From Malania oleifera (lineage: Eukaryota > Streptophyta > Magnoliopsida > Santalales > Ximeniaceae): 64,000 bases of DNA. The DNA is taken from the NCBI RefSeq assembly GCF_029873635.1, contig NC_080423.1:89511191-89575190 (forward strand), in the 5' to 3' direction. A program made the position numbers and the translations under genes. Of the stretch, positions 2,663-64,000 are shown one piece after another. The notes under the pieces are model-generated. The model saw only the letters and a program-made list of their open reading frames with translations. It had not been told where the DNA came from and did not search any database. The stretch's first letter is position 1; every line of letters starts with the position of its first letter.

Positions 2663-3202
2663 TGTTATAAAAGATGCAGAAAATAAATAGAAAATTAAAT
2701 AAGACGAGACAGAGATTTTACATAGTTCAGATATACCTACTCTACGGGTGGATTGGATCAAAGTTTCACTATTTTGGGATGAATTACAATATGATATGGA
2801 TATGCTCTTTTATAAAATCTCTCTTTATTTCTTTTATATCTCTCATCTTTCTTTCTACTTCTATCTTTCTCTATTCTTCTTTTCCAACTCTTCCTTTTTT
2901 CTTTTTTTTTTTCCATACTCCATTGGCTATGTAGGAGGAGGTATTTATAGCCTTCATGAGTTAGCTAATGTTAACTTAATTAGTGCAAACATATGAGATA
3001 GGTTCACATGGGGATATAAATAGTGCAGACATATAGGGCAGATTCGTAGGGATATGAAGAAGTGCGGATGTATGGGGCAAGTTCATAGGGACATGAATTA
3101 GTGCAGATATATGGGGCAGGTTCATAATTGACATGGATTAGTGGAGATATATGGGGCAAGTTCATAGTTGACATGGAGGACATCTACCTATATTTCATAA
3201 CA
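2663..3202 (-). repeat. 3' LTR of the second copia element
   Basis: Plus-strand ends are TGTTAT (2663) and CATAACA (3202). On the minus strand the U3 part contains four or so imperfect repeats of about 44 bp (about 3005-3175), each with a phrase like GCAGATATATGGGGCA. These are followed by a TATA box (TATAAATA, 2942-2949) and a pyrimidine-rich stretch. The adjoining polypurine tract AAAGGGGAG fixes the inner border. Confidence 0.75.
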
Positions 3203-3239
3203 CTCCCCTTTGGATGTTACTCATATATTAACTTCTTCT

Positions 3240-5210
3240 GCTAAGATCTTTAAGATGCCTCATTCTGATAAGATGAACAAATTTCTTGAATGTTGTAGTA
3301 GGTAAAGTTTTGGCAAACAAATTTGTTAGATTATCACTTGATCAGATCTGTTGAACATCTATATCACTCATATCACTATTCATCACTATTCTTCTAGAGT
3401 TCATGTGTATAGAAGAATTTTGGAGAGATACGCTTCATATGGTCACCCTTTATGTATCCTCCTCTCAGTTGAGTTTTAAATGCAACATTGTCTTCATATA
3501 AATCTTTTGCAATATTCTTGATTGATTGAAGATCACAATTTTCTTGGATATGAAAGATCATTGATCTGAGCCACACGCATTCTCTACTAGCTTTATAGGT
3601 AGCTAGTATTTTAGAATGATTGAAGTATATTGATGTAATCGTCTGCTTTATTCTCAAATAGCATTAAATGTGTTTAATTTCATTCCAATGTCGTCAACTA
3701 GGAGCAGAGTTATATCTTGCTATTAGATTTATAGAAAATGCAATGTCAGGTCTTGTACACTTTGCTAGATACATCAAAGAGCCAACAATACTTAAATATT
3801 GTACTTTAGGATCAAGTAATTCCTCCTGTCATCTTAAGGCTTAAATATGGTACTGTAGGACCAAGTAATTCCTCCCTCTCATCATGAGGCCGAAATTGAT
3901 CTTTCTTAACATAATCACACCATCATTGGAGATCCCAAAGGATGAATTTTATCCATATAAAATTACCTCAATACCTTTTCAGTATATTTATATTGATGAA
4001 CAAAAATTCCACCATTTACATATTCAATTTGTAAGCCAAGACAATATTTTGTTTTTCCTAAATCTTTCATCTCCAATTTTGCCATTAAATAATTTGCAGC
4101 TTTAGTGAGGTCTTTTGGAGTCCCAACTAAATCCAAATCATTAACATAAACAACAATTATAGCAAATCCAAATTATGATCTTTTAATAAAAATGCATGGA
4201 CAAATCAGATCATTTATGAAACCTTCTTTCATAAGATACTTACTTAACTGATTGTACCATATGCATCCAGATCGTTTAAATCCATATAAAGAACGTTGAA
4301 ATTTAATTGAATATAAATTTCTAGGTTTTGCTTCAGGAAATTCAAATCCTTTAGGGATTTTTCATATAAATTTCACTATATGATGATCCATGTTGTTACT
4401 CATCCATATGACGCATGCTTAGTCGTTCAACGACTGCTAACCCAATTAGGAATCTAAAAGTGATTCCATCCATTATGGAAGAATATGTCTCCTCATAATC
4501 AATTCCAAGTTTCTGCAAGAAACCTTATGCCACAAGCCTTGCTTTATATCGAGTAATTTCATTATTTTCATTTCATTTGTGCACAAATACCCATTTGTAT
4601 CCAATGGGTTGGACATCTTCTGGTGTCCGGACTATAGGTCCAAAAACTTATCTTTTTGATAGAGAGTTTAATTCTAATGTGTTAACCTCTTTCCATTTTG
4701 GTCAATCACTTCTATATCGACATTCATTAATAGATTTAGGTTTAAGAACCTCATTACTTCTAGTAATGTTATTATTACTTATGGTAATGTCAGTAGATGT
4801 TGCATATGCAAATGTGTTGTTGACAACAACTTTACTTCTATTCCACATTTCTCCTGTGTAATGAATTGAGATCTCATTATTATTTCCAAGTTCCTGTCCC
4901 TTTTCAAGGGATGTCTCTTCAGGAGTTTTCTTTTAAGGAGATTCCTCTTCAAGAGGTTTCATAATAGGAATTTCATTTTCAGGAGAAACAGGTTTGTGAA
5001 TGTCGAATGGATTATCCACCTCTGTAACATCTTCTGGAGTGTTTACATATTTCAATTTTGTCTTTATGGGAGTTTTATTTTTTGCACCAAAAGACCTTCC
5101 ACGTTTAACTTGTGGCTTAGGTATAAGGGACATCAATATATGCTTCAATATTTGTAGCAGGTAGATAAGATTTTAGTATGACTTTGGTATTTGCAAAAGA
5201 ATCTGGTAAT
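3240..5210 (-). pseudogene. Copia RT/RNase H remnant (broken)
   Basis: The RNase H region (3394-3657) has the family signature SRECVWLRSMI, EDN and GGYIKGD...ISPKFFYTHEL. Downstream the end of pol reads KKFVHLIRMRHLKDL. Further upstream are RT segments, including YVND near 4140 where copia RT normally has YVDD, and KSLA/ARYN-like stretches around 3680-3790. The linker (4933-5148) is Lys/Pro/Glu-rich. Many stops and shifts are present. The fragment is a dead retrotransposon pol, not a host gene. Confidence 0.75.
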
Positions 5211-5220
5211 TGATTTGCAA

Positions 5221-5493: not shown

Positions 5494-8400
5494 TGTAACG
5501 CCCCGAACCCTTAAACCCTGTCTAGCGCGTTATACCTGATTAAATCCTGATAATCCATAATTAAATCATACATAAGCAGCGGAAAACATAACTATGATCC
5601 TCAATCATAAAAATAAATACTAGAGTTTACTAATTCTATCTGTATTCCATAATAGCCATTCATCACCTCTATTCCCATATTCCATATATCTCTAAAAATA
5701 TATAGTATTCGCAAACACCAGTATGTTCCACAACCATCCATACCTTAGAAAACCTTAAAACATAAAACATAACTTATTTACATCCCAAATATCATCAAAA
5801 AAATTTATACCCTTTTCTTTATCTAGAACCCCAAAAATGCTATCAACCTTAAGCTTCTCTAAGCTCATTTACATAGTGGTCTTGAAAAGATAAATTTATA
5901 ATCGGGTGAGACACATGTCAGTAAGGGAAAGAAACAATATATATTAAAACAGCGTGTGGTATACATGAGATTATAATCAACATTTTAATATCATTTGCAA
6001 AAACAATAACATATATTCTGAAATCATTTTCTAAACCCTATCAAACACGTACAACACATTCACCCACGAGACTACCCAAGGATAAGGGTAATTACCCGCC
6101 CATACAAGTAGCACCCCTCTGCTCTGATACAATTGGCAACCCAAAGGTCACAATTGAAACATACCAGAGCACTCACCTTACTCAGTAAGTCCTCAAGTGA
6201 TAGATTAATCTCGTACTCACATAGTTCATTCAAAGGTTTACCAGTGAAGGCCCTCGAGAATAGGGAAATCTAACCGCCCATACAAATAGTTTTCCTCTGC
6301 CCTAGTGCGTTATGCAGCCTAGTGCTACATTTGATACTACTAATGCACTCGCCTTTTTCAGCAAGCCCTCGGGCGAAGAGTTTGCCTCGCCCTAGCGTAA
6401 CATGTTCTACTAACATAAATATTTGATAATACCATAATACATTATTCTGTCTGTTGTTATTCAACTATCCATATCTATTCAAATTCATATCTTTGGCATT
6501 TCATAACATTTCACTTTACATAACCTTTCATCTTTTACATCGTTCACATTTCATATTTCATATCCATTTCATTCACATTTCATTTTCATTTCATTTTCAT
6601 TTCATCCATTCACCCTACACCTCCTTTTAGTTGTACATCAGTTAGTCCACATAGATATGCGCTAGAATTTGCTAACACAGCTCCTTTTAACTATCATCAA
6701 TTAGTCTACAGCTCCTCTTAGCTATCATTACATACATGGTTGTATTATCAAACACAAACAACACAGTCCTTATACATTTCATTATCATTACATTTCTTAC
6801 ATAGCTGGCATCTCATACATATAACATATGCTCAAACAGCATTACTATCCACTCATACCACACATTTTAGCAGTAAAATTCATTCATTGCCTGTAAAATA
6901 AGCCAACCAACATTTAATGTTTATATACTAAAAATATACCTTCATTTCTTACATAATTATCTTGAAAATATTTTCCACTTTCGTTAGTTCATTATTATTG
7001 ACCTAACTAGGCTTTTCAATCTTGTTTTGATGATAACAAAATGAAGGATGGTTTAACATGTGTTGTTAAGTGGGTTTATTTTAGGTCTAAGGACACTCAT
7101 GGTTAATCATGGAAGCAAGCTGGAGATCAATGTTGATCAAGTGAAAGCTTCTCAGTATATTGAAGCAATGAACGACAAATGAAGAGCTTAAAGGCCAAGC
7201 AGATCTTGAAGTCAAAAGTGAACCTCAAGAAGCTGCAAGACTTATTGATTAAGGAGATCATGCTTAGAAGGATATTTGTAAGTACTTCAAGTCATTGCTA
7301 TTTAGATATGTGAAGTTCCTTAAGATACAAAGACTTAGAGACTAGCACTTGAAAAACTCTTGAAAATATTTTTGAAAAGTTATAATTAAGTTTTTTAAGT
7401 AAACTAGATTTTAAAGAAATCAAAAATTAGAAAATATTTGAAAAAGATGACTGCCCAGCCGACTAACTCGTTAAACTAAAAGTACCCAGCCAACTGACAG
7501 CACCTAGCTGATTGACCATTATTGAACGTGGTTCAGTCAGCTGATTGATAGGAAACCTTCAGCAAAGTTAACTGTCTAGCCGACCGACTCAATGAACTGA
7601 AAATGTCAAGTCAACTGACAGTACCCAGCCGACTGACAATTTAGAACGTGGTTCAATCAGCCGACTGACAATTTGTCAGAATTATTTTTTGAGAGACAAA
7701 ATGGTGTCAGTCGACTTTCCAGCCGATTGACTAGTGCAAAAAATGACCTAGTCGAGTGGGTCAGTCGACTGATTTTGCGGGGAATTTTTGAATTTCAAAC
7801 TTACGAGAAGATTTTCAAAATTAATTCTATAAATTAATATCTTTTAAAAAGTTACCTAAATGCTCCATGTTAAATGAGGAAACTTTTCCTTAAATGGTCT
7901 ATAAATGCCTCTCTTGCTCAATGAAAAAATACACCGAAGCAATACACGATTTCTATGCTAAAACTCTCCTAAAGCTTATTCTTGCTCACACCTTTTTGCT
8001 GGATGAAAAACTGTACGAAATTATTAAATTAAAAATAAGGGTTTGGTTCTGAGTTGCATCAAAATCTTTAAGAAAGAACCATTGGTGACTTCTAAACCTT
8101 GATCTTCACATTTTCTATTTAGTTTTGGTTTTGAAGTACTATTTGAGATTTAACTTGTATAACTTGCTCTGTGTTTGAGAATGTTTTTGTACGCAGATAT
8201 CCATTCCTTTCTACTAAATCTTTGACGGTTCAAGGTATTGTTGAATCATTGGACCAAGCATAGGTTGTTGCTTTCTCTTCCTGAAAAAGAGGTTGATTAT
8301 TGTAAGATTTTTGTTCCACCCAGAAGGAACAAGGTAGAGTGAAATCCTTAGGTGGTTGACCTAAGGCAAGGACGTAGGCTGGGATAAGCCGAATCTCGTA

Positions 8401-9134: not shown

Positions 9135-9896
9135 CATAATACATTTCCATTTAATACATGAAAACCTTATTTAATATATAAATTTCCCCCTTACTTGAAT
9201 CCTTAAACTATACCAACAAGTTTCCCAAATTGATGTCTGTGATGCTCACCCGGACCCTAGTTCAAAAATCCTAGTTTAAATAAATAAACCTCAAATAAAC
9301 TACCATTTCTACATTTTCTCAACTTAATAACCTTAAATAAACCCTTAATAAATCCAAAACTGAGAATCTTAACCCTTACCTCAACTTAGGAGAGGTTCCC
9401 AAAAAGCCTAGTTTAGAAAACTGATCCGCTAGATGTATGGAGAATCTTCCCTAGAACACTATAGTGACTACCAATCGTTGATTCGGGCTGAATCCGGGCC
9501 AGATTCTTAGAGAGAGGGGAGAAAGACGAGTTTAGAAAGAGAAAGTTGAAAGAAAATTAATTTCCTTCCCAAGAAAGAAACCTTAGATCTTTATATACTC
9601 TTCTTTACCACGTGGACTCATCGACGAACCACTAAAAAACACTCGTCTACAAGGTCATGAGCTTGTCAATGAGTTTTAGAACAACCCAAACCCTCTTAGT
9701 TAATCCTCGTCAACGAGACATGCATACTCAGCGACGAGGCTCACAAGATCTCTCATCAATGAGAAAATCCTGCTCTTCGACGAGCACCTGTTTGTACCCT
9801 TTTACAATTTATTTTTTTCTTTCTTCTATTTCCTCTTTTTCCTTTTATTATCTTTCTTATTATTTTAAATAGTTAAAAATTCTCCAAGTCGTTACA
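5494..9896 (-). repeat. 3' LTR of the large element, interrupted by an insertion
   Basis: Plus-strand ends are TGTAACG (5494) and GTTACA (9896). Without the insertion and its duplicated target it is about 2.4 kb, close to the 2.34-kb partner. It contains CATTT-rich simple sequence (about 6480-6610), a TA microsatellite (about 9098-9134), a TATA box on the minus strand (9589-9597) and a block of GTCGACGA-type phrases (about 9615-9785). Confidence 0.88.
6996..8993 (+). mobile_element. 2.0-kb solo LTR inserted in the left large LTR
   Basis: Absent from the otherwise matching right LTR, where the empty site reads TTCATTTTCGCATAT. The insert starts TATTGACC (family start TGTTGACC) and ends GGTTTCA. 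It is flanked by ATTAT (6991-6995) and ATTTT (8994-8998), a duplication with one mismatch. It carries a repeated-phrase block with GACTGAC/GTCGACTG words (about 7440-7770), a TATA box (7900-7906), a U5 motif AAGGACGTAGGCTGGGATAA near 8370, and a C-tract followed by CTCTTGGGACTACA near its end. Confidence 0.82.
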
Positions 9897-10091: not shown

Positions 10092-11194
10092 TCATAAACC
10101 CATACTTACTTCTCTGATGGCATCCTCCTCAGCTTGAAGTGTATACAGTCGGAGTGGAGCACCTCTTCCAAGTGGTACCTGTTGTTTTCCCCGATCCTGG
10201 TTTTGAACAGATACCATATGCAATGGTTCCCGACAATTTTTATTGATATGCCCTAGCTTAGTGCACCTAAAACAATTTGGAGGCATTCGCCCTATGCCTT
10301 TTATTACATTTCTGGCATACGGAGTCCACTATCTCTTTCCCTTTCATCCCTGATCCTTGACTGGCCTCAAACTGAAAACTAGATGGTGTAGGCCTCTTCT
10401 TCTGCTCTGAAGGCTCTGTGCTGCTCTGGATACTCTTCTCTAGCATCGAAGCCTTATTAACTAATTCTGAGAAAGTCTGAACTTGAAACCTCACCACCAG
10501 CTCGTATATTTTGCATCTCAGGACTTTTTCAAATTTCCTGGCCTTCATTGCCTCGTTTGGGATCAGAAATGGTGCGAAGCGTGATAACTCCACAAATTTC
10601 GTTGCATATTCCACAACGATCATCTCCCCCTGGGTCAGATTTGTAAATTCCTCAATCTTCTTCTCTCTGACAGATGAAGGAAAATACCTGTCAAAGAACA
10701 GTTCCTTGAATCTCTCCTAGGTAAGAGCTATCTTTTCTAGCCTCTGATCCTCTAGCAGCTTTGTAGAAAGCCACCAGCGTTTCGCCTCCCTGGTCATCTT
10801 GAAAGTGGCATAACGGACCTTCTGCTCATATGTGCAGTCGAGTACATCCATGATCTCCTCTATTTCATGTACCCAATTCTCTGCAGCCACTAGATTAGGT
10901 CCTCCTACTAATGCCAAAGAGTTCATCCTCATAAACTCTTTAATGCTGCAGCCCTAACCTGCAGGTGGACAGTTCTATTCTTTAGGTTCCTTCTTCGTCT
11001 CTGCCTTAACCTGGCAGGGCTATACCACGTAGCACCTTGGAGGTATCAATGTCCTCTTCACTGGAAGTATCTGAACCTTCCCTTCCTTTAGCCTCTATAT
11101 TCTCATCTCCAGAGTCCATCTTGAAAATAGGATAAAAAAGAGATAAGAATTCCATATCATAACTCCAATACACAATTATATAATTTAAATCCAA
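10092..11194 (-). pseudogene. Gypsy-type gag (broken)
   Basis: Adjacent open stretches on the minus strand give a gag: an acidic N-terminus (11006-11194) and a retrotransposon gag domain (10717-10932 and 10267-10623, with [20 protein letters not shown] and ERFKELFFDRYFP). A CX2CX4HX4C zinc knuckle follows (CFRCTKLGHINKNC, in 10092-10286). A stop near 10718 and a frame change near 10270-10285 break it. No pol domain follows; the polypurine tract comes about 160 bp later. Confidence 0.82.
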
Positions 11195-11471: not shown

Positions 11472-13808
11472 TGTAATGCCTAGAACCTTTAAACCCCGTT
11501 TGGTGCGTTTTACCTAATTAAATCCTAATAATCCATAATTAAATCATACATACGCAGCGAAAAACATAACTATGATCCTCAATCATAAAAATAAATACCA
11601 GAGTTTACTAATTCTATCTGTATTCCATAATAGCCATTCATCACCTCTATTCCCATATTCCATATATCTCCAAAAATATACAGTATTCGCAAACACCAGT
11701 ATGTTCCACAACCATCCATACCTCAGAAAACCTTAAAACATAAAACATAACTTATTTACATCCCAAATATCATCAAAAATATTTATACCCTTTTCTTTAT
11801 CTAGAACCCCAAAAATGCTATCAACCTTGAGCTTCTCTAAGCTCGTTTATGTGGTTGTCCTGAAAAGATAAATTTGTAATCAGGTGAGGCACATATCAGT
11901 AAGGGAAAGAAACAATATATATTAAAATAGCATGTGGTCCACATGAGATTATAATCAATATTTTAATATCATTTGCAAAACCAATAACATATATTTTGAA
12001 ATCATTTTCTGAACCCTATCAAACACATGCAAAACATTCACCCGTAAGACTACCCAAGGATAGGGGTGATTACCCGTCCATACAAGTAGCACCCCTCTGC
12101 TCTTCTACAATAGGCAATCCAAAGGTCACAACTGAAGCATACTAGAGCACTCACCTTACTCAGTAAGCTCTCAAGTGATATATTAATTGCCTATTCACAC
12201 AGTTCATTCAAATATTTACTAGCGAAGGCCCCCGAGAATAGGCAAATCTATCTGCCCATACAAATAGTTTCCCTCTGCCCTAGTGCGTTATGCAGCCTAC
12301 TACTACATCTAATACTACTAGTGCACTCACCTTTATCAACAAGCCCTTAGGCGAAGAGTTTGCTCCGCCCTAGCGTAACATGTTCTACTAACATAAATAT
12401 TTGATAATACCATAATACATTATTCTGTCTGTTGTTATTCAACCATCCATATTCGTTCATGTTCATATCTTTGGCATTCCATAACATTTCACTTTACATA
12501 ACCTTTCATATTTTACATCGATCACATTTCATATTTCATATCCATTTCATTCACATTTCCTTTTCATTTCATTCATTCGCACTACAGCTCCTTTTAGCTA
12601 TATATCAGTTAGTCCACATAGATATGAGCTAGAATCTGCTAACACACCTCATTTTAGTTGTCATCAATTAGTCTACAGCTCCTTTTAGCTATCATTGTAT
12701 GCATGGTTGTATTATCAAACACAAACAACATAGTCCTTATACATTTCATTATCATTGCATTTCTTACATAGCCCGCATCTTATACATATAACATATGTTC
12801 AAACAGCATTACTATCCACTCATGCCACACATTTTAACAGTAAAATTCATACATTGTCTGTAAAATAAGCCAACCAACATTTAATGTTTATATACTAAAA
12901 ATATACCTTCATTTCTTACATAATTATCCTGAAAATATTTTCCACTTTCCTTAGTTCATTTTCGCATATACGTAGCTAAATAAGCAGCCCTAAGCTCAGA
13001 AAAATATTATTTATATGGTTGGCATTTTATACCCATATGAAAACATATATACATATGTATAACATAATCCATGTCCATTTAATACATGAAAACCTGATTT
13101 AATATATAAATTTTCCCTTTACCTGAATCCTTGAACTACACCAATAGGTATCCCAAACTAATGCCTGTGATGCTCCCCTAGTTCAAAAACCCTAATTTAA
13201 ATAAATAAACCCCAAATTAACTACCATTTCTACATTTTCTCAACTTAATAACCGTAAATAAACCCTTCCAAAATTGAGAATCCTAACCCTTACCTCAACT
13301 TAGGAGCAGTTCCCAAAAAGCCCAGTTTAGAAAACTGATTTGCTAGATGTGTAGAGAATCTTCCATAGAACACCGTAGCGACTTTTGATCATAGATTCAG
13401 GCTGAATCTAGGCGGGATTCTTAGAGAGAAAGGAGAGAGACGAGTTTAGAGAGAGAAAGCTGAAGGAAAATTAATTTCCTTCGCTAGAAAGAAACCTTAG
13501 ATCTTTATATACTCGTCTTTACCACGTGGACTCGTCGACGAACCATTGAAGAACACTCGTCGACAAGGCCGTGAGCTCATCGACAAGATTCAAAACAGCC
13601 CAAACCCTCTCAGTTAATCCTCGCCGACGAGACATGCATACTTGGCGATGAGGCTCACAAGATCTCTCATCGATGAGAAAATCCCGCTCGTCGACGAGCA
13701 CCTATTTGTACCCTTTTACAATTTCTTTTTCCTTTCTTCTATTTCCCCTTTTCCTTTTATTATCTTTCTTATTATTTTAAATAGTTAAAAATTCTTCGAG
13801 TCATTACA
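11472..13808 (-). repeat. 5' LTR of the large element
   Basis: Plus-strand ends are TGTAATGCC (11472) and CATTACA (13808), 2337 bp. It aligns with the 5494-9896 LTR throughout. On the minus strand the U3 block of CTCGTCGACGAG-type phrases (about 13526-13700) is followed by a G-box (CCACGTGG, 13522-13529) and a TATA box (TATATAAAG, 13503-13511), then a GA/CT-rich leader. Confidence 0.88.
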
Positions 13809-17639: not shown

Positions 17640-18780
17640 TTTTATCTACAAAAAAAAAAACTCTTGGCAATATTATAAGCAATTATAACAATATTGGTAA
17701 AGTAAATCAAGCACAAGACAAATATAAAAAAGTGAAGGGAGAGAAAGCTTAACATCAGAGATTTAATTTGGTTCGGCACCAAGCCTACGTCCACGCCTTA
17801 GCACCAAGCCAAGGATTCCACAATCCACTCTGAATACTCCTTCACCAGCGAACCAAGCCTTACAACTCGAGTACCCAACCCTACACTTAGGGAACAAATC
17901 CCTATCTGCTCACAAAGAGCTTTCGGTTCACCAAGAACCTTCACCAAATGGTTCACAAAGAACCTTTACAACCAAGGAGATGGATTTACATAAGAAGCTC
18001 CTCAAATGAGCTAATTGCAAATATAAATCAAACCTCACACTACTCTCTTAAGGAATGATTCAAACAAGATGAATGAGCAATAGAGATTGAGCACTTGTGA
18101 ATGAAAGACAAAGATGCAAAGTGTTAAGTGCTTAGGTTTTGGATAAAGTTATATTTTTCACCAATATGATCAACAATGCTACAAACCATCTCTAAACAAG
18201 CCTAATAGCTTGTATTTATAGCCAAATAGCCAAAGGAGTCGTTAACTAGTCGTTAGGAACAAGTCCCAAATGTTTGGCTCGAGTTCTAGCTGTTGGAGCA
18301 CTGGGCCTGAGGCCAATGGTCAACCAGAGACCTTACTGGACGACCAGTCACCTGGTCTGCGAGAAAAAAATAGCTACTGGAAAAGTTGGTCGACCATTCC
18401 CTTGTTCTAGTCAACCATTCCCCTGTTCTAGTCGACTAGAGCCCTGAATCAGAAAACATCATCAACATAAAAGTTGTGAAATTTTTTCTTAACTTTCCAT
18501 AGATACCAAGATCGTTCTTTTTGGACTCTTTTAGAAAAAGTTATGCTCAAAATACCGAAACATATTTAGGACTCAAGGCTGCACTACGTTAGTTGACAAT
18601 TGCTCTATTTTTTCTTTGAAAAAAAAAAACCTTTTAATGATTTAAAACATTCTTAGACAAAAGTATAAGAAATATATTAAGTCTAATAAAGATTAAAACT
18701 TGTCTAGAAGAGTTTCCCCACGAATATAAGATATCTTGTTAATAAAAACACATTTGAAAAACTATTTCGATATCTTATAT
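17640..18780 (-). repeat. Probable LTR, minus orientation
   Basis: The plus strand at about 17765-17795 reads TTGGTTCGGCACCAAGCCTA followed by CGTCCACG, the complement of a U5 motif found in many plant copia-type LTRs and also near 8370 in this window. On the minus strand a repeated-phrase block with GGTCGACC and GTCGACTAG words (about 18280-18440) is followed by a TATA box (TATAAATA, 18213-18220). Exact ends and target duplication are not resolved. Confidence 0.5.
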
Positions 18781-25639: not shown

Positions 25640-27775
25640 TGTAGAGACCTGAAGAATTATAGTAATTAAATAATAAAAGAAATGAGAGAAAAAGGTTTTC
25701 AACAGGGTCTCGTCGACGAGTGTAGAAGTGCTCGTCGACGAACATGTTTCTTGGGATTGTCGACGGGGACATTCGTCTCGTCGACGAGAAATTACTGAGA
25801 AGACTGTTTTCAGAACCTGAAACTCGTTGACGAGGAGAAGGTGTTTGTCGACGAGCTCCCTTCGTTGACTCGTCGACAAGATGTGGCTCGTCGACGAGTC
25901 CACGTGGACCAGCATTCTATAAAAGGTCAAGAATCCATTTTTTTTCCTACGAGAAACATTCAGGAAACTTCTCTCCCTCTCTCTCTCTCTCTAACCTCGT
26001 CCTCTCCTCCTTCTCTCTAGTAATCTGGCTTCATTTCACGCCGGTTCGACGATCCGAAGTCGACACGCTACTCCTAGGAAGTTTTCATTCACATCTACAG
26101 GAGTAGATCGTTGGATAGGCCAACTTGGGAACCATCCCAAAATTTGGGTAAGTTGAATATTTTAATTTTTATTAGGTTTTTGGTGTTTCAAGACTGAGGA
26201 GAATATGTTAGGTAAGATAATACTAAAGTTTGTTGGGGAAAAATGTTAATTTCAGGGTGTTGTGCTAGGAACACTGCAGGTGTAGGATTGAGTGTTTTGT
26301 GGGCTTCTTAGTAGGCCAGGTAAGGGGATAAACTAAGTCAGAACTTTCATGAAATTATTTATTATTCTACAGCATTAAATTTAAGGAAAATATATATATT
26401 ATAGAATTATGTTTGGGAAATACTACTATGAAGAGGGATATGATTTAAACGTGTTTTATTAGAAATTATGATTTTAGAACAAATTTTACATTCAGAATGT
26501 TACCCATTTCTGTGTGGCATGAATTGAAATTTCCATGTAATTATGTATACTAGAATAATATGTTTTTCCAAATCAAGCATGATATGATAGTTTTCAGGGC
26601 AATTATAAAACAATACAGGAACCATGATTTCATGAATATAATGTTTAACAGTACAGAGAAATCATGTTCAGTATATTATATGATATGTCGGTGCAGATAT
26701 TGTGATTAAATGTTATGTTATGCTGGTGCAGATGTCGTGATTCATGTTGGCGCAGATGTCATAATCATGTATGATAAGACAGAATTCATGAAATATTATC
26801 ATGTAAGATATTATTATAAAATACGAAACAGTTATTTCAGTATATGAAACATATTATATGTTGTTAGAACCCGAATGGTATGGTTTAATTCAGTTTTCAG
26901 GAGCATGGTACCGTAGCTATATGTTCAGAACTATGATAATGCTACGACACGACCAGTAGTGTGGGAGATGGCAGTCAATGTGGCTTCAGTATAGAGTGAA
27001 GTTGTTCCCCTGACAGTCCAGGACCAGGAGGGGCAGACTCATTGTACTTATAGACTTATGTTTGATTTAGCATGGTCGGTTAACCATTGCTAGGCCCCCC
27101 CTTCGAGCTACACAACCTAATCATGTGGGGCTAAGACATGACATCAGCTAGCTATCCATCCTGGGTATTATTTCAGTATTGTACAGTTACATAAGATGAT
27201 TTTCATGTACAGAAATTTAGTATGCCTTATTATGATATGACAAATCATGTTTTACTCAGTTTTACTACGGACGGATTATACCAAATATGTTTATTATACT
27301 GTTTATATGTATAACATGAAAATACTCATGATACCACACATTGATGTTAGTTTATTTCCCTTACTGAGAGGTATCTCACCCCAACATTTCAAACATTTCA
27401 GGAACTCCAGGTAGAGGAGTAGATAGAGCTTCGTGACAGTAGAGTCCGACCGAGCTACCTTGTCAGAAGGGAAAGTTGTTGAGCTAAGGTTAGATTTATT
27501 TTTGGGAAGTGACCCTAGGTTACTTTTTGGTCTTTTGGTGGATAATTGTATATATAACAGATTTTGTAGGACTCTGGTATTGTGGTTGGTTGGTGACATG
27601 TTTGTAAATTACGTTTTCTACTACTTAGGTATCAGAGTTAAATGACAGGTTTATCCCTGGTACTCATGAGTCCAGGTTGAGCATGATTACATCAATTTAG
27701 TAGGTGTTAGAGTTACTATGAGTGTTATTATGGAAAAAAAAAAAAAAGATATGGTAAAATAGGCAGGTTGTTACA
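25640..27775 (+). mobile_element. 2.1-kb solo LTR, plus orientation
   Basis: Starts TGTAGAGACC and ends GGTTGTTACA, flanked by AATAG (25635-25639) and AGTAG (27776-27780), a duplication with one mismatch. It carries a block of CTCGTCGACGAG-type phrases (25709-25897), an extended G-box palindrome (GTCCACGTGGAC, 25898-25909), a TATA box (TATAAAA, 25918-25924), a CT-repeat leader (about 25975-25993) and the conserved core CTTACTGAGAGGTATCTCACCC (about 27360-27381). It is the same subfamily as 34642-36850, in the opposite orientation. No internal region is present. Confidence 0.82.
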
Positions 27776-29412: not shown

Positions 29413-30619
29413 GGTATGTTTTGAATGTACAAATTATATTAAAAAATCCTCACCTTTGCCTTTGCTTGGACGTGACCTAAACTCTCCTTTAGAGGGTCCT
29501 TTTATAAGCCTTTTGTGAGTGAAGGGAAACCCTTTTCAAATTTGAATTTTAAAATTTAAATTCAAAAATAACTACCAATAATTACCAACCACGAACTATT
29601 ATGACTGGTAGTTGACACGTTGCATCAAAGGGGAATGTGGCATGCCCAAAACCTCTTGCCAATTTCATGAGGTCAACTCAAAAATTCAAATTTGTGGCAA
29701 ACCAGTTGACCACCTTGAGGGGTAGATCAGTCGCCTACGGGAGGGCACCCATGGCTATTTGGAGGGAAGGATGGTCGACTACCCAAAAGGGTCGATCGAT
29801 GACCTAGAATTAAGGGTTGATCGACCGTCTCTACCTTATTTTTTTCTTCTCTTTTTACTTGCTTCCACTTTCATGTACTTAAAAGGACTTTTGTTTTGGG
29901 AGGTAAAAAATGACCATCAACCACGCGTAGACAAGATCCACACAGGATTCATAAAAATTGCATGAGATTTTGAAGAAATATTAAAATATTCATGTAAATG
30001 GTCGACCAATCTCGAGGCACAATTAACCACCACTATTCTCTACAGATGACCAATTAACCTTTAGGGCACGATCAACCACCCAATTCAGAGACTATTTATT
30101 AGCCCCTTTTTTTCTAAACTTTTCTTAAATTTTGGATTCAATGATTGGTTTAAACACTTACCAAAGTGTATGGCCAAATTTAATGGTTTTCTACATAGAA
30201 AAACCAAAAATGCCCATTTTAAAGTGTTTTCAAGAAATGTAAAAATTTTGGAATGAATAATATGACTTTTGGACATTTTCTAAAAAGTTTCTAATTCAGA
30301 TTTCAATGAATTTCAAGGCAGGTTTGTGATTTTCGCACCAAAAAATTAATTTAGAAAATGTCAATTTTAAAACTAATCAATTATGAAGTGGCTTAAGCGT
30401 GAAAGTTGCTTATTTTCTAAAATTAGCAAACTTCGAGGCTGTACTTTTGTAGAGTTTTCTAAAAAATCAGTATTTTCTAATTAAAATATCTAATTTTCAC
30501 TCAAGGTTTCTATTTTCAAAATCTCTAAAATGTTTTTAATCAAAAATTGAAATTTTTTTGGGAAAATACAAGTGGCTTACTTCCATTCTATGGTATGTAG
30601 GCAATCTATTTTTCATAAT
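27781..30619. other. AT-rich repeat debris with GT microsatellites
   Basis: Contains two (GT)n tracts (29308-29333 and 29383-29411). Blocks of GGTCGAC/GATCGACC words at about 28175-28210, 29700-29835 and 30000-30085 resemble the U3 phrase blocks of LTRs elsewhere in the window. Ends of elements are not visible. Open reading frames here look random. Confidence 0.4.
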
Positions 30620-31990: not shown

Positions 31991-32039
31991 GGATTTCTAA
32001 ATCTGTGAATGTTTTTCAAGAAGAGGATTCAGAGGATGG

Positions 32040-33374: not shown

Positions 33375-33639
33375 GGGCCAGAAAGTTGGGTCAGTGATGA
33401 ACATGTTGTGCAGGTGGAGTTGGAAGCTCAAGGCAACGAAAATGATCATGGTCCTGTGGTTGCAAGGAGCTTTAGGGAAACCAGCAAGTCAACGATATTC
33501 TTATACAGAGATCAGGATGCACTATCAAGTCTCCATCAAGGTATGGTTTTGATGAGTTAGTATTTTATGTTTTCCTTATTTGTTGCAATGATCCAACTTC
33601 TTTTCAAGAGGCAGTGCACGGCTAGGAAAAAATAGGTGG

Positions 33640-34641: not shown

Positions 34642-36501
34642 TGTAACACCCTGGCCCGTTATATGGCAGCAAAGTGCTACAACACCTGTATAATATAATT
34701 GTTTCTGATAACATACATATACCACTTGCCCTTAATAGGGACATATGAGTGTTTCATATACATTTTTAAACTTAAGCATAGTGGAAAACATAAATATCCA
34801 TTTGGAAATCTAATAGACATAACCCAAAGTTTCTAATTGTATCCTCAAATACATACAATTGTACTTAAAAACATAACATGTTCTTACAATCTCTAAAAGA
34901 TATTCTGAACTAAGTTTATTACATACATAAAACACTTATGTAAGCTAAAATCAAAACGACACTCCAAGTCCCTCTAGCAACTAGGACCGACGTCCTGTAG
35001 GACCTGAAAAAAAGGTTGTATGTTGGGGTGAGACACTTCTTAGTAAGGTGGAAGATATTAGATCAGTGTGTGACCATACATATTCAAACTAGTAGAAAGT
35101 AGTTACGTATATATATAGCATATTCTCAACACTATAATATAGAAGATATATAGATATAATTCCTGTGATAGATAATTAAGCATCGTTGCAAGCGAGAGTT
35201 TCCGAGGTCAGGGTAGAGTACAAGCACATACACTGTAAGATCCCTCCACCCAGTACTCAAACCTGTGACTTTGCCAATTTTAGTTTTCAAATCATAAATA
35301 TGCATATTTAGAACACTGAACAACTTAGATACAATAATAACAAATGCCAACACTACCCCTTGGCTTCGGGTTATGCGATTTATTATAGTCCGACTGGTAC
35401 CACCTAGTCCATTAATCCACTTGTGGCCACTCCAATATCCAACCAACTATCTCAATACCTCACACTGAAAATCATATGTGTGGTTTCTCTGTATCCAATA
35501 TGAAGCAATAAAACCGCGCTCAAGCTTTTTAAGGTTTTATATAACGTTGAGTTTTTTAAGGCTCTTCTATAACGGTGAGCTTTTGAGGGCTCTCATATAA
35601 TGGTGAACATTTTAAGGCTCTGATAACGGTGAGCTTTTTAAGGCTCTGATAGTAACAAGTTGTGGTTTCAAATATCATATATACAATTTATAATAAAATG
35701 AATTAATTTGTTACAAATTTACGAATCACTTGTACAGTTCCATTATTTTCACAAACTCATTCATTCATACTGGGGTATAAACCGGCACACAAACTCTCAG
35801 TTTAACCCCTTTACGTACATAACTCGGTATATAATCGGCACCTGTTTTCCACATTTTTAGATAGCAAAAATGGAACTCCAGTTCCCATAGTTCGTATACT
35901 TATTTAAACAGGTTTGCATATTCCATTTCATATCATATGTCATACTCGTTTGTTCAAAATTCGTTATATAGCATATAACTCGATATCATTTAAATGGAAA
36001 AATAAGGGATTCAAGCATCTCCTACATTAAGATTAATATAAATAAATAAGTTTTGAAAAGTTTGGAGATCATACACCAAAACCCTCATTTTTATATAAAT
36101 CGTAAAATCATAAAACTGACCTTTTTACCTGGTGAAACTTCGCAAATAAGCAGTCATATCATACATATAAACATAAACTAACTTTTTAATGGTTTAGTTT
36201 TCTAAAAATATTGATGTAAACAAATCACCTTACCTTTTTCCAAATTTCGTAACACAAACTACCCGACTCCAAAACAACAAACTGAGTTCTCAAAACCTAA
36301 AACTCATAGAACAACACTTCAATACAATCTTATTAACTAACAATCTACCAGATCATAAACTAAATCAGACCCTTACCTTGATTTCAGGATAAAACACGGA
36401 AGTCTTCAAAATGAAGATCCGATCCGCTAAAATCATAGAGATTTCCCCCCTGTTCTGCATAGTAACGTTGGATCGTGGATTCGGGTGACGAATAGTGAAG
36501 G

Positions 36502-36586
<85 letters not shown>

Positions 36587-36850
36587 AGTTTCTTAACCAT
36601 GAAGTAATGAAAAATGATATTTATAGACCCCTTGACCCGGTCAAACTCGTCGACGAATCTTTTCCTTCATCAACGAACCCTTTGTCCGATATTTTTCCTG
36701 TCAATTGGGATCTCTTTGTCGCTGAGATTCTGAATTTCAGCGACGAACCATAGAAGGGCTTTCGTCGACGAGAAACTTGGCTTCATCGATGAAGCCTACT
36801 AAAATTACCTTTTTACCCTTTGTCTTATTTTACGAGTTTGGGTCTCTACA
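34642..36850 (-). mobile_element. 2.2-kb solo LTR inside the copia RNase H region
   Basis: Plus-strand ends are TGTAACACCC (34642) and GTCTCTACA (36850), with a perfect target duplication TGTGG (34637-34641 and 36851-36855). On the minus strand: GTCGACGA-type phrases (about 36645-36785), a TATA box (TATAAATA, 36618-36625), a long CT/GA microsatellite in the leader (about 36510-36581) and the conserved core at 35026-35048. It is the sister of the 25640-27775 LTR. Because it interrupts the copia ORF, it inserted later than the copia element. Confidence 0.92.
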
Positions 36851-37367
36851 TGTGGGGACATCGAGATATGGCATAATGTTCAGCAAGCAATACGGTTGTC
36901 CTTCAGTTATAGGGTTTGTTAATGCAAATTATACTGAAGATATGGATGACAGAAGGTCTACAACGGGATATGTGTTTACCTTTGTAGGAGGACTGGTATG
37001 TTGGAAATCCATGGTACAGTCTCTGGATGCATTGTCCATGACTGAGGCAAAATATATGGCAGTTTTCGAAACTGCAAAGGAAGTATTATGGCTTACTGGT
37101 TTAGTCGGAGAGTTAGGGTTACAACAAAATGGTGTGGTGCTGCATTGTGATAGTCAGAGTGTCATTTACTTGGCGAAAAATCAAGTATACCATGCTAGAA
37201 CCAAGCACATTGATGTGAGGTTCCACAAAGTTTGGGAATTGATTGCTTCAGATGAACTTATGTTGGAGAAAGTTCACACATCTCATAATGCAGTAGATAT
37301 TATGACCAAATCAGTTACTTCAGAGAAGTTCAAGCATTGCTTGGACCTATTCCATGTCTCCATGTGA
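36851..37367 (+). pseudogene. Copia RNase H, continuing after the solo LTR
   Basis: Reads GTSRYGIMFSKQYGCPSVIG, then DMDDRRSTTGYVFTFVGGLV, MTEAKYMAVFETAKEVLWL, HCDSQSVIYLAKN and HARTKHIDVRFH. These are the hallmarks of copia RNase H. Compared with the part before 34641 the frame is off by one base even after the duplicated target is removed, so a small deletion occurred at or near the junction. Confidence 0.9.
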
Positions 37368-37468: not shown

Positions 37469-38054
37469 TGTTATTTGTGGCTCTTATACTTCTGTTTGGA
37501 TAAGCAAAGAAGGAAATAGGAAAAACATGAAGGGGCAGCACAATAGGACTCGTCGACGAAAGGCCTATGCTCGTCGACAAGGAAACAGCAGAGGTTCGTC
37601 GACGAAGGCTCTGAAGCTTGTCGACGAATAATTACCAAGAGCAGGAAATTTCAGACTTCTGCTTCGTCAACGAGAGCCCTAAATCGTCGACGAAGGTTCT
37701 TCTTGGTCTCATCGATGAAACTCCTGTGTTCGTCGATGAGGGGGCGTCTGGGCTGCAGTAGTTTGTCTAAATTTTTGAATTTTGAATGTTGGGTGGTTGG
37801 GAAAACAGGGGGAAACCTTTGAGGAAACTCTATATATGTCATCTAGGCATATTTTGAGAGTGAGAGTGATCATTATTGAAGTGTATTGTGTACATTGTGA
37901 TTTCCATAATGAAATTTTTGTACTTTTTGCTTTCGTGGATGTAGGCTTTGCCGAACCACATAAATCTTTGTGTTGTTGTGCTTATTGGTTGTGTTATTTA
38001 TTTCTTGTTGATTATTCCGCTGTGCATCTTCATTATACGATCCATATCACAACA
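37469..38054 (+). repeat. 3' LTR of the copia element
   Basis: 586 bp, starts TGTTATTTGTGG and ends ATATCACAACA. It is closely similar to the 5' LTR but has one more GTCGACGA phrase near 37550-37570. A TATA box lies at 37831-37837. Confidence 0.92.
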
Positions 38055-58435: not shown

Positions 58436-58475
58436 GGTTTAAAATGACAAAATGTCACCAAACAATAACTAAACC
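58348..58475. repeat. Perfect palindrome with 45-bp arms around a TA repeat
   Basis: The arms (58348-58392 and 58431-58475) are exact reverse complements (GGTTTAGTTATTG ... AACCGTTTA). They are separated by about 38 bp of TA repeat. A second TA tract (about 58304-58347) flanks the left arm. No coding sequence. It may be a foldback element or a recent inverted duplication. Confidence 0.85.
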
Positions 58476-59373: not shown

Positions 59374-61973
59374 TGTCACGCCCCAATTTTTCATACCATT
59401 TTTTCCATATAATTAATACGAACACCACATATCGGCCACGTCAACCACTGATACCATAGTACATAACCTGACCCGAAAGTGGGTATCGGGTATAGAATCA
59501 TGCTCATACACAACCCTAACAGCAGAAGTCATTTCAAATATATATACATACATACCACAGTGAATACACATATCAAAGTACTATACCATCCATATATACA
59601 AGTCTAATACATAAACCTCTAAGGGAATCAAACCTCCTTAACTCAAAATACTCACCCTGACTACACAGGGTATCTGCCCCCCTCTATCTTAGAACTCTAT
59701 CACCGGGTCTATTTCGGTTTCCTGAAATATTTAAATGATTAGGAGAGACACATCTCAGTAAGACGGAATAAATTATCTATAGTGTGTGGTAATATGAGAT
59801 TCATTATATAATAACACATATTTGTTTCAATAATAATATCTTCTAAGAAAATATATATCATTTCCACAATCGTAATCATATAGGTATAAAACACAAACTT
59901 CCATAAGCTTTTACTTCCAATTCCAAAATCATTCATTTGTAATCCAGATTTACTGGCAAAGTTCCTAAGAATAGGGAAGCTTACCTTCCTATACAAGTAG
60001 TTTCCCTCTACCCTAATATTGTTTGCTGCCTAACCCGATTAACTCAAGTTCAGTTACAACTAATACTTATCAGAGTACTCACCTTACTCAGTAAGCCCTC
60101 GGGTGGTATGTTTTACTTCGCTTTAATTATTTATTAACTCATGCTATTTCATTTCTCATTTTCTTTCTTGTTTCTATTCTCATTTCATTTTCATTTTCAT
60201 TTTCATTTCATTTCCATTATCATTTCCTTTTCATTTCCATTTCCATATCAAGCTCGTGAATGTCACCATAACCGATACATCCATGTTTGTACTCAAGGTT
60301 GTCCTAAGGATATTGCTTCACATCATGCTTCCCCTCATGAATAGGGTTGTGCAGCCCGAAGGCTGGACCTAACCGCGGTTGGCCGACTCAGTTAGGTCAA
60401 ATATCATCACATATCTCATATCTACAATACGACTAACTAACCAATAGCCCTGATCCAGACTCAGGGGGCACAACAAATCTACTATACAGCTCAGTCGACT
60501 ATCACGCCACATGCTCCACGAGTTTGTGTGATTGCACTAACACCACTAGCAACAGTATCGTGCTCTCAATATCACAATCTATCTTTAGGGTTTCCATATC
60601 CATCCATCAGGGTTATCACTACCACATACCAACAATCATTATGTGGTATTGACATTTCATCAATCACATGTCTGTATTCCCCTTTCAGAATTTCACATTT
60701 CATTTCTCACAATTTAATACTCATATTGCAGAATTAACGGTGCAATATTCACATTTCACATATTCACATTTCCCATTATCATATTTCTCAAATTTACATT
60801 TCTCATTTTCATATTACAGAATTATCATTGTAATATCTTCATTTCACATATTCACATTTCCATGATCATATTTCTCATATTCACATTTCAAATCTCATTG
60901 CAGTATTAACATTGCAATGTTCACATTTTCAGTATTCACAACTCATTTCATCTTATGAATACATATACATATTTCATTTCATGAAATTCACATTTCTCAA
61001 TAAAACCTTTCTATATCACATATTCATCATTTTTTAGAAGATGTTCATTTTCCAGTACATTTCACTTTCAACATTTTCCCCCATTTCAAATCTCATATCT
61101 CAATTCATATTTTCAATAATCTCATTTCAACTTTCACAATTCATTTCATCAATTTAGTAAGCACATTTCCATGTACACATTTCAATATAAATCATATGTC
61201 ACACAAGTTTTCATCTAATATTTATGTCATAATAAATTTCAAGTAAAATAACATAATTCCATTTTCACATAATAACTCATCCAGTATTTCTCAAATCAAC
61301 TATAATAATTTATTTCCCTTACCTGACTTTTTGAGATTCCACTAAACACCCAATTTTCTGTGCCCTTCGATGTTCGCAACCCAAAAACCTACAATTTGCA
61401 TTTTCCCCAAATTATTCAACACAACTCTTAGAACAACTTCCATATAACACTTCCTACATTTCATATACCCCAAATTAACTTAGGAACCCTAAAATACACC
61501 ACTTACCCTGGTTTTGGGATGGTGCCCCGAAACCCCAACTTGAAAATCTGCTCCACAAACGTTGCAGAGAATCTTCCTAGGAACCCTGTGGTGGTTCCTG
61601 ATCGTCAATCAGGGCTTTAACGGAGCTGGAATCAAAGGAAGAAAGGAAGAGAGTTCATGGGTTGCATGAGAGAGAGAGAGAGAGAGAGAGGAGATTTTGA
61701 TTTCATAAAAGTAAAATGGCTCTCAATTTCCCCTTATATGCCCACTGCAGAGAAAATCGTCGCTGGTTTTCTCCAGCGCTCAGAAAACTATCATTGATTT
61801 TCCATTTAACCAGTTTGGTTTTAATCGTTTACTTGTTACCACTCCGCGGTAAATACCAAAACCGTCGCTAGTTTTCTGGCTCCTCCAAAAAACCATCGCC
61901 GGTTTTCTCCTTCCCTGACTAAAAATCACTTTCTCCTTTTTCTTTTATTATTTTATTTTCCCGGGTCTCTACT
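59374..61973 (-). mobile_element. 2.6-kb solo LTR, minus orientation
   Basis: Plus-strand ends are TGTCACGCCCC (59374) and GGGTCTCTACT (61973), flanked by a perfect CTTAT duplication (59369-59373 and 61974-61978). It is related to the other large LTRs: conserved core at about 59743-59763, CTCACCTTACTCAGTAAGCC near 60079, a CATTT-rich domain (about 60140-61160) and a GA-repeat leader (61670-61690). On the minus strand a TATA box (61733-61739) follows a block of repeated AAACCAGCGACGATTTTC-type phrases (about 61750-61910). No internal region. Confidence 0.88.
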
Positions 61974-61978
61974 CTTAT

Positions 61979-62546
61979 GGGTGTGTGTGCACATACTCAT
62001 CCGTTGAACATGGTTAATAATGGTATTTAGTAGTTGAGCTCTAAGAGGTAAATGAAGAGGTATGCTTATAAGTTGAGCACACAGGGATGAATTAATGAAT
62101 AGAAGAACTGATGTCCCCAAGTGGAACACATATGATTAAGCAAGGAATGGGTGCTTATAAAGGGAACTCATATACAATTGAAGCATGGATGGATAGAGTT
62201 CCATATATGCTTTGATAAGCTCATGAGAGATACTTCAAATTGAGCAGTTAGGAGTAAATGAGAGCATATAGAAATAGAAGGGAATTTGCCTCTTGAAGGT
62301 TTACCATTGATTGGTGAATGCTTGTAGATTAACCACATTGCATGGATATATAGATGCTTGTTTTTAAGTATGGATGGATAGGTTCTTAAAACAAGTATGG
62401 ATGGTCGAATGCTCACAAATTGAATGAGGTGTGATGTTCCTAAATAGAGCACAAATAGATGCTACCTAAATTGAGCATGATTTGGTGACAAAGGAAGGGG
62501 ATGCTCTCAAATTGAGCATGCTTGAGGATGGATGCTTGAGAGAGCT
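61979..62546. other. Intergenic
   Basis: Enriched in loosely repeated GATGGATG/AAATTGAGCA words (about 62040-62530). They also occur at 59100-59350 on the other side of the solo LTR, so the LTR landed in a diffuse low-complexity repeat. Confidence 0.45.
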
Positions 62547-64000
62547 TGTTGACTCTATGAGTCTGATCCCGTTTTGATGATGACAAAACCAATGTTTCTG
62601 TTGACCTTATTGATCACGCTCAGTTTTGATTATGACAAATACTCATTGTATCTAATGAGTGTTTGAGGTTTTGTGCAGGAACTAAGAATGATAAGATCAA
62701 GATGTACACAAAGCAAGAAAAGCTTGAAGACCAATTTATAATTCAGCATTGTAATATATTTATATTGGTCTGTAATAGTAAGTAGGTATTTGGTTTGTAA
62801 TAAACTCACACACATCACATGTATGATTTACTTTGTAAGCTCAAACAAACCATGAATGAGAAAATGACCATAGAAAGACCTTAGGGTTTTCGACCGACAC
62901 CGGACTTTTTCGGTGTCTTCAAATTGGACCCCAAGTGCCCATAGGACACACACATTTACACATATGTTTGTTAGGCACTTGAATAGAACTTGTTTGCTTC
63001 AATACGGGACCAAAATGCACACTTGGTGCACTTTTGGTTGATTGGCCAACACAGTTCACTTTGGCCTGATCGACCGAATCGGCCCTGGGTCAACATTTTG
63101 ACCAAGGCCCGGTCAACCGAACTTCACAGTTCATTTCTTTCCGGTTGACCGAATCCTGACAGGGTCAATATTTTGACCATGACCTGGTCGACCGAACCAA
63201 GTAGTTTAAAAGGCCCTAGTCAACCGAAACCCCTTGGGGTCAAAACTTTGACCATCTAGTCGACCGACCCTTTTTGTACTCCAACTACCTGGTTGACCAA
63301 AGGGTCCTCGAGAGAATTCCCAGCGGTCTGGTTGACCGAACCAAGCAGTTCAAAATGCCCTGATCGATCGAAACTCAAAAAATTGAGGAATCGCCCTCTC
63401 CTGGTCGACCGAGCCTTCAGTTCAAAAGTCCCCTAGTCGATCGAACCATTTGAGACTTGGTCGACAGAACCTATTCTGGTCGATCGGACCTCTCGGGTTG
63501 CCCTGATTTTTTTACCGCAGTTAATATTTTTAAACAGGGTTAAAATACTCTAAACTTCATTAAACTTTCCTAATAATACCCAATAAGTCCCCAACGGTCA
63601 TATTTTCTCCCATGTCTATATATATGAATTCATTTGAGAAAATTAAGAGTGATTAGCCACCTTGATTAGGGAAGAATTCTCTGAAAAATAAAAACCCTAT
63701 ACTACTCATTTTTGTTACTCAAATCACTCATACTTGCCTTCTATCATTGCCTGCATCATTTGTAAGTGAATTGAGTGTGTTTGAATAGGTTTGCTCTCCT
63801 TGTTCTATTTGCTTGGCACGATTTTATTAGAGAGCAAAACCTAAGGATTCTTAGGGGACTTTGTTGATAAGTCTATCCTAAGAAGACCTTATTAGATCTT
63901 CTAAGCTTACACCTTCATTGGAATATCCTGAGAAGATCGTATAGTATCTTGTTTGCAAAAACTTTTCAAAATCATCTTCAAATATTTAGTGTGCTTTATA
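62547..64000 (+). repeat. LTR, plus orientation, running off the window
   Basis: Starts TGTTGACTCTATGAG, followed by a second start-like copy TGTTGACCTTATTG at 62599. Both lead into a TTTTGAT.ATGACAAA word that is also present near the start of the 6996-8993 LTR. A long block of GGTCGACCGA-type phrases (about 62885-63490) is followed by a TATA box (TATATATA, 63617-63624). The end of the LTR is not in the window. Confidence 0.6.

Follow-up and report, generated by a model that had tools for sequence, protein, structure and literature searches.

Why do the long terminal repeats (LTRs) of several retrotransposon families carry blocks of short repeated phrases directly upstream of the TATA box, and could these blocks be one and the same device? 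The question was raised by a 64,000-nucleotide stretch of the Malania oleifera genome (contig NC_080423.1, positions 89,511,191 to 89,575,190 of the forward strand; hereafter the window), for which a preliminary description had claimed an enhancer-like layout common to unrelated LTRs, of convergent or exchanged origin. The observation is upheld in a corrected form: one Ty1/copia element (K1) and three gypsy-type families (G1, G2 and G3) carried the same 10-bp palindrome, TCGTCGACGA, in a near-equal series of spacings upstream of TATA. We put at roughly 50% the probability that these arrays represent one enhancer-like cassette of the U3 (unique 3') region, serving a dimeric host DNA-binding protein and shared across superfamilies. 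The word and spacing common to one copia and three gypsy-type families are the part that we found described in no paper; arrays of the Sirevirus type were already known. The elements and their arrays were as follows.

30625..31191 (+): K1a, 5' LTR of the classic-type Ty1/copia element K1; array 30704-30887 with 7 sites; TATA 30968
31489..37364 (+): coding remains of K1, interrupted by G3; Retrotran_gag_2, gag_pre-integrs, SH3_retrovirus and RVT_2 over cutoff, rve and rve_3 below cutoff
37469..38054 (+): K1b, 3' LTR of K1; array 37550-37741 with 8 sites; TATA 37831
~5494-9896 (3' LTR, interrupted) and 11472-13808 (5' LTR) (-): G1, gypsy-type element; duplication TCGAT
9615..9785 (-): G1a, palindrome array in the 3' LTR of G1; 7 decayed sites, 5 with at most two mismatches; TATA 9589-9597
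13526..13700 (-): G1b, palindrome array in the 5' LTR of G1; 7 kept sites, one with 3 mismatches; TATA 13503-13511
10270..10716 (-): gag fragment of G1; match to PF03732 Retrotrans_gag above cutoff (6e-08) and to Ty3_capsid below cutoff (1.6e-05)
25640..27775 (+): G2, apparent solo LTR, classed as gypsy-type from the likeness of its LTR; flanks AATAG/AGTAG
25709-25897 (+): array of G2; 8 sites; TATA ~25918
34642..36850 (-): G3, solo LTR nested in K1; duplication TGTGG
36645-36792 (-): array of G3; 6 sites, one with 3 mismatches; TATA 36618-36625

The palindrome was confined to these arrays. At no more than one mismatch, TCGTCGACGA occurred 28 times in the window, always within G1a, G1b, G2, K1a, K1b or G3, compared with a mean of 0.3 and a largest count of 1 in 30 shuffles of the whole window. 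The phrases could have been as frequent elsewhere in the LTRs as upstream of TATA; for this word, every site fell inside a block that the preliminary description had listed. When two mismatches were allowed, 42 of 46 window matches lay inside blocks, and each of the six arrays held 5-8 sites, a number reached in none of 500 shuffles of the same stretch. The core hexamer GTCGAC was found 36 times, 29 of them inside the blocks (2481 of 64000 bases, 3.9%), and 30 window shuffles gave a mean of 3.0 and a maximum of 6.

Spacing was compared after sites had been called at up to four mismatches, which gave 49 matches; 43 were kept and six dropped (two in G2, one in G1b, three in K1) to set registers. 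Among the kept sites, 39 had at most two mismatches and four had three. The start-to-start series common to the four families was ~21-25-21-46-20-25 bp. K1b read 21-25-22-46-20-25-21, and K1a, having lost its first site, 25-22-47-21-25-21; G2 read 22-25-21-46-21-25-18, both G1 arrays 21-25-21-44-20-25, and G3 21-25-21-49-20. Most steps agreed to 0-1 bp among K1b, G2, G1b and G3. Permuted spacings came as close to the K1b order in 48 of 5040 cases for G2, 4 of 720 for G1b and 2 of 120 for G3. In 1,000,000 random draws, the agreement between K1b and G2 arose 0 times from uniform spacings of 18-50 bp, 0 times from the spacings of the S arrays listed below, and 4419 times from K1's own spacings. 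In G1, G2 and G3, which have 7, 8 and 6 sites, the last kept site began 30-31 bp before TATA.

Sites and the spacers between them were conserved to different degrees. Thirteen of the 43 sites were perfect, and 40 of the 49 changes were CpG transitions (C-to-T or G-to-A). From one family to another, sites were 77-86% identical and spacers 29-44%, although site identity was biased upward because sites had been picked by likeness to the word. Within elements, K1a and K1b agreed at 84% in sites and 79% in spacers, and the G1 pair at 80% and 89%. Divergence between the two LTRs of an element was 0.21-0.50 in CpG columns and 0.07-0.11 in other columns. We infer that the sites were near-identical between families at insertion and later decayed like methylated CpG, the spacers having diverged earlier. 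The central spacer, over 14 bases, matched at 11 positions between K1a and G2 (19 of 5000 shuffles as high), at 10 between G2 and G1b (64) and at 9 between K1a and G1b (307). Among the G arrays, in-register spacer similarity was equalled by 65 of 5000 shuffles for G2 and G1b and by 491 for G1b and G3. Out-of-register permutations never reached the observed spacer scores, a result that we discounted since spacer lengths differ. A recent exchange between K1 and G LTRs was ruled out, as their spacers were just 35-42% identical.

The LTRs that carry these arrays were not members of one recently diverged family. With the arrays masked, no G1-G4 LTR (G4 being a fourth LTR of the same lineage) matched K1, or the nested LTR S1, at E 0.01. 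Five of the six G1-G4 pairs matched each other (best 1.8e-9, weakest 0.006), indicating distant relationship. K1 was assigned to Ty1/copia by its domains (PF14223 1.2e-16, PF13976 2.4e-10, PF25597 1.1e-31, PF07727 4e-36). G1 was assigned to Ty3/gypsy by its gag match; its three minus-strand frames at 9900-11472 were read by eye only. G4 was related to G2 in the sequence on either flank of its array yet carried a different dyad, a sign that arrays turn over separately from the LTR backbone. A search of viral contigs with the spacing pattern found nothing; the pattern is of low sensitivity, matching just the two K1 LTRs in the window. Searches with the K1 integrase and G1 gag (viral contigs) and the K1 reverse transcriptase (prokaryote contigs) confirmed no relative, a result of little weight given these collections.

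K1 lacked three of the four Sirevirus marks examined and was mixed for the fourth, the junction. The plus-strand polypurine octamer AGGGGGAG, which Sireviruses carry in several copies near the 3' LTR, was absent from 30625-38054; the tract AAGGTGGAG preceded the 3' LTR. The sizes of K1 were classic-like, with 105 bp from the last open reading frame (ORF) to the 3' LTR, LTRs of 567 and 586 bp, and 5216 bp in all without G3. Reported averages for linker, LTR and element are 1.5, 1.28 and 10.55 kb in Sireviruses and 0.078, 0.56 and 5.60 kb in classic elements, with two Sireviruses having LTRs of 0.54-0.56 kb (PMC2829016). Neither K1 LTR contained a run of six or more C, and both thus lacked the polyC-rich integrase signal found near the LTR 3' end in 17 Sireviruses (PMC2829016). 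The Sirevirus 5' junction is CA/ATTGG/TATCAGAGC and the 3' attachment AT/TG (PMC2829016); K1 had ATTGGTATCAGAGA preceded by an extra A at its 5' junction, and a Sirevirus-like GAG-AT-TG on its 3' side.

The remaining arrays and blocks of the window were as follows.

59374..61973 (-): G4, apparent solo LTR of the same lineage as the other G LTRs; probable duplication CTTAT
61750-61910 (-): array of G4; four imperfect dyads resembling AGAAAACCAGCGACGGTTTTCT, with 1, 3, 3 and 6 mismatches and spacings of 31-74-31; TATAA (61733-61739) 34 bp past the start of the last site
7440..7770 (+): S1, array in a nested LTR (~6994-8993, ends approximate, inside G1), with sites like CAGYCGACTG; TATA 7900
18280..18440 (-): S2, short array of TGGTCGACCA-like sites in a copia-like LTR; spacings 21-21-34-16-20-26; TATA 18213-18220
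62885..63490 (+): S3, Sirevirus-type array of GGTCGACCGA-like sites; TATA 63617
~29600..30070 (-): S4, decayed GTCGAC-type sites, seen by eye and not listed in the preliminary description; TATA-like box ~29500
3005..3175 (-): K2, 39-bp direct tandem repeats in a copia LTR; TATA 2942-2949

All 11 TATA boxes given in the preliminary description were located, each downstream of its block in LTR orientation, at gaps of 10-130 bp. The repeat blocks themselves were real; the eleven examples, however, came from nine elements, as 9615 and 13526 are the two LTRs of G1, and 30704 and 37551 those of K1, so that the number of independent examples was overstated. The claim of a single design also failed for the blocks as a whole: GTCGAC was intact in 8 of 11, G1a being a decayed copy of G1b, G4 carrying a longer imperfect dyad, and K2 having no GTCGAC and being CpG-poor (observed/expected ratio, o/e, 0.37). 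Arrays of the kind found in S3 had already been described for Sireviruses (PMC2829016), and K2 is a plain tandem repeat.

In nine of the 11 blocks, none of 100 dinucleotide shuffles (none of 40 for S1 and S3) equalled the best repeated 9-mer, counted on both strands with one mismatch allowed; S2 and G3 were marginal, with 7 of 100 shuffles matching each. Background windows of 180 bp (n=327) reached a best count of at least 4 in 48 cases and at least 5 in 20, the latter being for the most part repeats of AT or TTTCA and those near 19000. Because such counts were common in the background, those of G1a (4), S2 (3) and G3 (3) were not unusual alone. Exact palindromes of at least 8 bp exceeded shuffles at the 5% level in six of the 11 blocks (S1, G1b, S2, G2, K1b and S3). 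K1a (0.067) and G3 (0.11) missed this level and reached 0.023 and 0.02 for palindromes of at least 10 bp, and the K2, G1a and G4 blocks contained no exact palindrome of 8 bp or more. Repeats also occurred elsewhere in the same LTRs (6502-6605, 12504-12575, 35523-35656, 60147-60246 and 60720-60940), none with GTCGAC. Together with the background counts, they indicated that it is the kind of word, not repetitiveness, that is special to U3. By eye, two related short copia-like LTR stretches (~1786-1960 and 56044-56224; 77% identical over 169 columns) had no block. The other repeats in the same LTRs and the plain tandem repeat of K2 would suit a neutral origin, in which U3 arrays are functionless products of replication slippage, alike by chance or base composition. 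We considered such an origin very improbable, as all 28 TCGTCGACGA sites were in position where 0.3 were expected, and simple slippage does not yield alike sites with unlike spacers.

CpG density set most blocks apart, with an o/e of 0.49-1.81 in the ten other than K2 and of 0.44 outside blocks. Seventeen CpG-dense islands were detected in the window; nine overlapped blocks (G1a, G1b, G2, K1a, G3, K1b, G4 and two in S3). Of the eight outside, three lay near 53961-55050, adjoining a long minus-strand ORF without a Pfam match, and one in a CACTA-like element. The arrays could accordingly be pictured as anti-silencing sites or as platforms for methylation, the binding protein being either a methylation reader or one that the element encodes; the VANC proteins of VANDAL transposons are a model for the latter. 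The preponderance of CpG transitions among the site changes fits this idea as well, but such decay is expected from methylation after insertion in any silenced element. CpG columns in the blocks (0.24-0.25) were not clearly protected relative to those elsewhere in the LTRs (0.21-0.50). We rated this reading the least probable of those that we weighed.

The same GTCGAC core bore other flanks in S1 (CAGYCGACTG), S2 (TGGTCGACCA) and S3 (GGTCGACCGA), the flanks being symmetric in S1 and S2. W-boxes were rejected as a common word, as TTGAC variants in S3 and S2 look, by eye, like CpG-decayed forms of the palindrome. Different flanks on one core fit convergence, in which the same or related host factors would have imposed word and spacing, and the copia and gypsy-type LTRs would have gained their arrays independently by local duplication of a chance site. 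The conservation of sites and spacing next to near-random inter-family spacers agrees with such an origin, as does the different dyad of G4, which indicates that arrays turn over. Convergence does not readily account for the match between seven consecutive spacings of K1b and G2, which differ by at most 1 bp at six steps and have the long gap at the same place, or for the agreement of K1a and G2 at 11 of 14 central spacer positions. We therefore regarded it as unlikely, though deserving serious weight.

The spacing of K1b is mirror-like and would allow pairing across the middle of the array, which raises the prospect that folding is what matters, either as a source of small RNAs for host silencing or as a structure in retrotransposon RNA, an idea put forward for maize Sireviruses (Bousios 2016). 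The sense strand folded more stably than shuffled sequence in nine of the 11 blocks (60 shuffles, z -2.5 to -7.1; S3 cut to 350 bases), and the effect was not notable in K2 (z -0.96) or S2 (z -1.68). In maize, Sirevirus LTRs contain a palindrome cluster with strong predicted structure (Bousios 2016, as described in PMC10760457), and small RNAs are attracted to these structured regions (PMC10760457). However, palindrome arrays fold by construction, and the non-palindromic K2 reached z -3.3 on its other strand, so that folding scores do not show function. A silencing target would leave the constant distance to TATA in G1-G3 unexplained, and maize Ty3 elements generally have no LTR structure peak (PMC10760457). 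A hairpin role appeared improbable on these grounds.

Returning to the cassette shared across superfamilies, steps of 20-22 bp (K1, G1-G3 and the first two of S2) correspond to about two helical turns, and those of 29-33 bp (S1, S3 and G4) to about three. Counts of phased spacings (S3 10/13, S1 6/13, S2 2/6, G4 3/4; K1/G resultant 0.31) were not a test because the spacings had been preselected by hand, and helical phasing is at most a property of site pairs.

Several findings weigh against the shared cassette. The evidence comes from one window and four families with site calls made by hand; matches to TCGTCGACGA at up to four mismatches are common in shuffles, six matches were dropped for the sake of registers, and picking sites by likeness raises their identity. 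The 25 and 46 bp steps are off helical phase, as are several in S1 and S2, and the last K1 site starts 100-101 bp from TATA, farther than in G1-G3. The best sign of common descent would be spacers of K1 and the G arrays that resemble each other in register; such similarity was weak, with 31, 58, 206, 214, 239 and 522 of 5000 shuffles scoring as high, and G2 and G3 showed none (3311 of 5000 shuffles as high). The likeness of the central spacer was chosen after the alignment had been viewed and is absent in G3. Finally, the apparent solo LTRs G2, G3 and G4 were classed as gypsy-type by their LTR similarity to G1 and to each other only, a class that is accordingly provisional, with a weak G1-G2 match taken alone (0.002) and no match between G1 and G3.

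The closest known system is the repeated motif (RM) of Sireviruses (Bousios et al. 2010), a high-copy, palindromic, CpG-rich motif that clusters in the upper part of the LTR, a short way before a conserved TATA box, as in the blocks described here; it was called Sirevirus-specific and absent from classic retrotransposons (PMC2829016). S3, with 14 GGTCGACCGA-like sites (up to three mismatches) at spacings mostly alternating between ~32 and 39-43 and TATA 127 bp past the block, qualifies as an RM array, that is, a palindromic motif in at least eight copies upstream of TATA. Its element runs off the window, so the array is recognized without assignment to the genus. The Vitis RM is CGGTCGACCG (PMC2829016) and shares nine of ten letters with GGTCGACCGA; no exact copy was present in S3. 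Both halves of the CGG-CCG signature (CGGT..ACCG, CpG decay allowed in the core) occurred in 2 copies of S3 and the right half in 7. The LTR that contains S1 had twelve C at 8957-8968, near its approximate 3' end, as in the Sirevirus polyC signal. The K1 and G1-G3 arrays resemble the RM in place, symmetry and CpG density. Unlike the RM, they consist of TCGTCGACGA, lack the CGG-CCG signature, and lie with a common spacing in classic-type copia and gypsy-type LTRs (PMC2829016). The maize Sirevirus palindrome word, CACCGGACNNNGTCCGGTG, also differs from TCGTCGACGA; a maize copia palindrome found in Helitrons as well provides a precedent for a palindrome in two element classes (PMC10760457).

Other plant elements offer parallels. 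The U3 tandem repeats of tobacco Tnt1 are known as BII boxes. Like K1, Tnt1 is a classic Ty1/copia element with repeated U3 elements (its tandem repeats are mentioned in PMC3601003), a likeness at the level of description. Host stress factors act through short LTR sites in the heat-responsive element of ONSEN and the W-boxes of EVADE, much as proposed here; these involve named factors, and the accessible part of PMC12786077 describes no palindrome array with spacing common to superfamilies. Nothing on palindrome arrays was found in the accessible parts of PMC4379980 and PMC3601003. A literature search by title and start of abstract, thin on subscription journals, gave among the matches listed none evidently on TCGTCGACGA LTR arrays or on an array common to copia and gypsy.

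The PLACE database lists GTCGAC as CRTDREHVCBF2 and RYCGAC as CBFHV, both CRT/DRE sites of CBF/DREB factors, and CGACG as a G-box coupling element (table in PMC9138379). The arrays share the core hexamer GTCGAC with the CRT/DRE site, a short consensus match only, and RYCGAC needs no dyad. RYCGAC was present in 1-9 copies per block in nine of the 11 blocks, and CACGTG directly followed the last site in G1 and G2. The CRT/DRE core, the CGACG coupling element and this CACGTG may serve as leads, and the PLACE match makes an AP2/ERF factor of the CBF/DREB kind a candidate binder and no more.

Comparison of the window with itself yielded two LTR pairs, those of G1 and K1, in what is plant-like DNA of nested LTR retrotransposons. 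K1 was flanked by a perfect 5-bp duplication, AGATG, and its ORF at 36726-37364 had no Pfam match. The sequence on both sides of the K1 insertion (29100-30613 and 38060-38400) contained decayed GTCGAC-type sites and, at ~29500, a minus-strand TATA-like box, as judged by eye; it is possibly another Sirevirus-like LTR. Also by eye, G1 was apparently inserted in the start of another gypsy-type LTR (TGTAACGCCCCGAACC; 5219-5492 and 13814 onward), itself within the coding remains of the K2 copia element, and with S1 inside G1 this made four levels of nesting. A GGTGAGACACTTCTCAGTAAG-like stretch recurred in gypsy-type LTRs far from TATA (13850-13890, 35015-35060, 59740-59785, 5900-5930 and 27350-27385; self-comparison, partly by eye). 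Elsewhere in the window, two ORF pieces at 14529-15575, in the nested repeat region, matched PF24924 (DUF7745). The region 18781-19330, which we take to be the start (CACTACAAAAAAA) of a CACTA-like element, was dense in TTAGTGACGGTTT-type repeats and contained a CpG-dense island (o/e 2.2). An ORF at 21841-23283 combined protein kinase and NAF domains, the make-up of plant CIPK kinases, and an AT-rich stretch of 128 bp at 58348-58475 was perfectly self-complementary.

In the favored reading, most of the blocks would be enhancer-like: each CpG-rich palindrome would be a site for a dimeric host DNA-binding protein, and the array, directly upstream of the LTR TATA box, would act as a U3 enhancer that drives transcription of the element. 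The arrays of K1 and G1-G3 would be one cassette, consisting of TCGTCGACGA at corresponding positions, in pairs ~21 bp (two helical turns) apart that are separated by 25 and ~46 bp, while the letters of the spacers are almost unconstrained. Recombination or template switching, in a host ancestral to the present one, would probably be how the two superfamilies came to share it, and selection on sites and spacing may have kept it while the elements were active. A more specific form of this proposal, to which we would give somewhat less than even odds, is that selection on sites and spacing preserved a single cassette, of up to eight sites with a fixed spacing code, that had been exchanged between Ty1/copia and Ty3/gypsy elements in this lineage of plants. 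Unrelated elements would then respond to the same host protein, and arrays would be swapped independently of the backbone. If this is true, promoter control in plant retrotransposons would be modular and common across superfamilies, and one host factor would control several families, which should then be switched on together.

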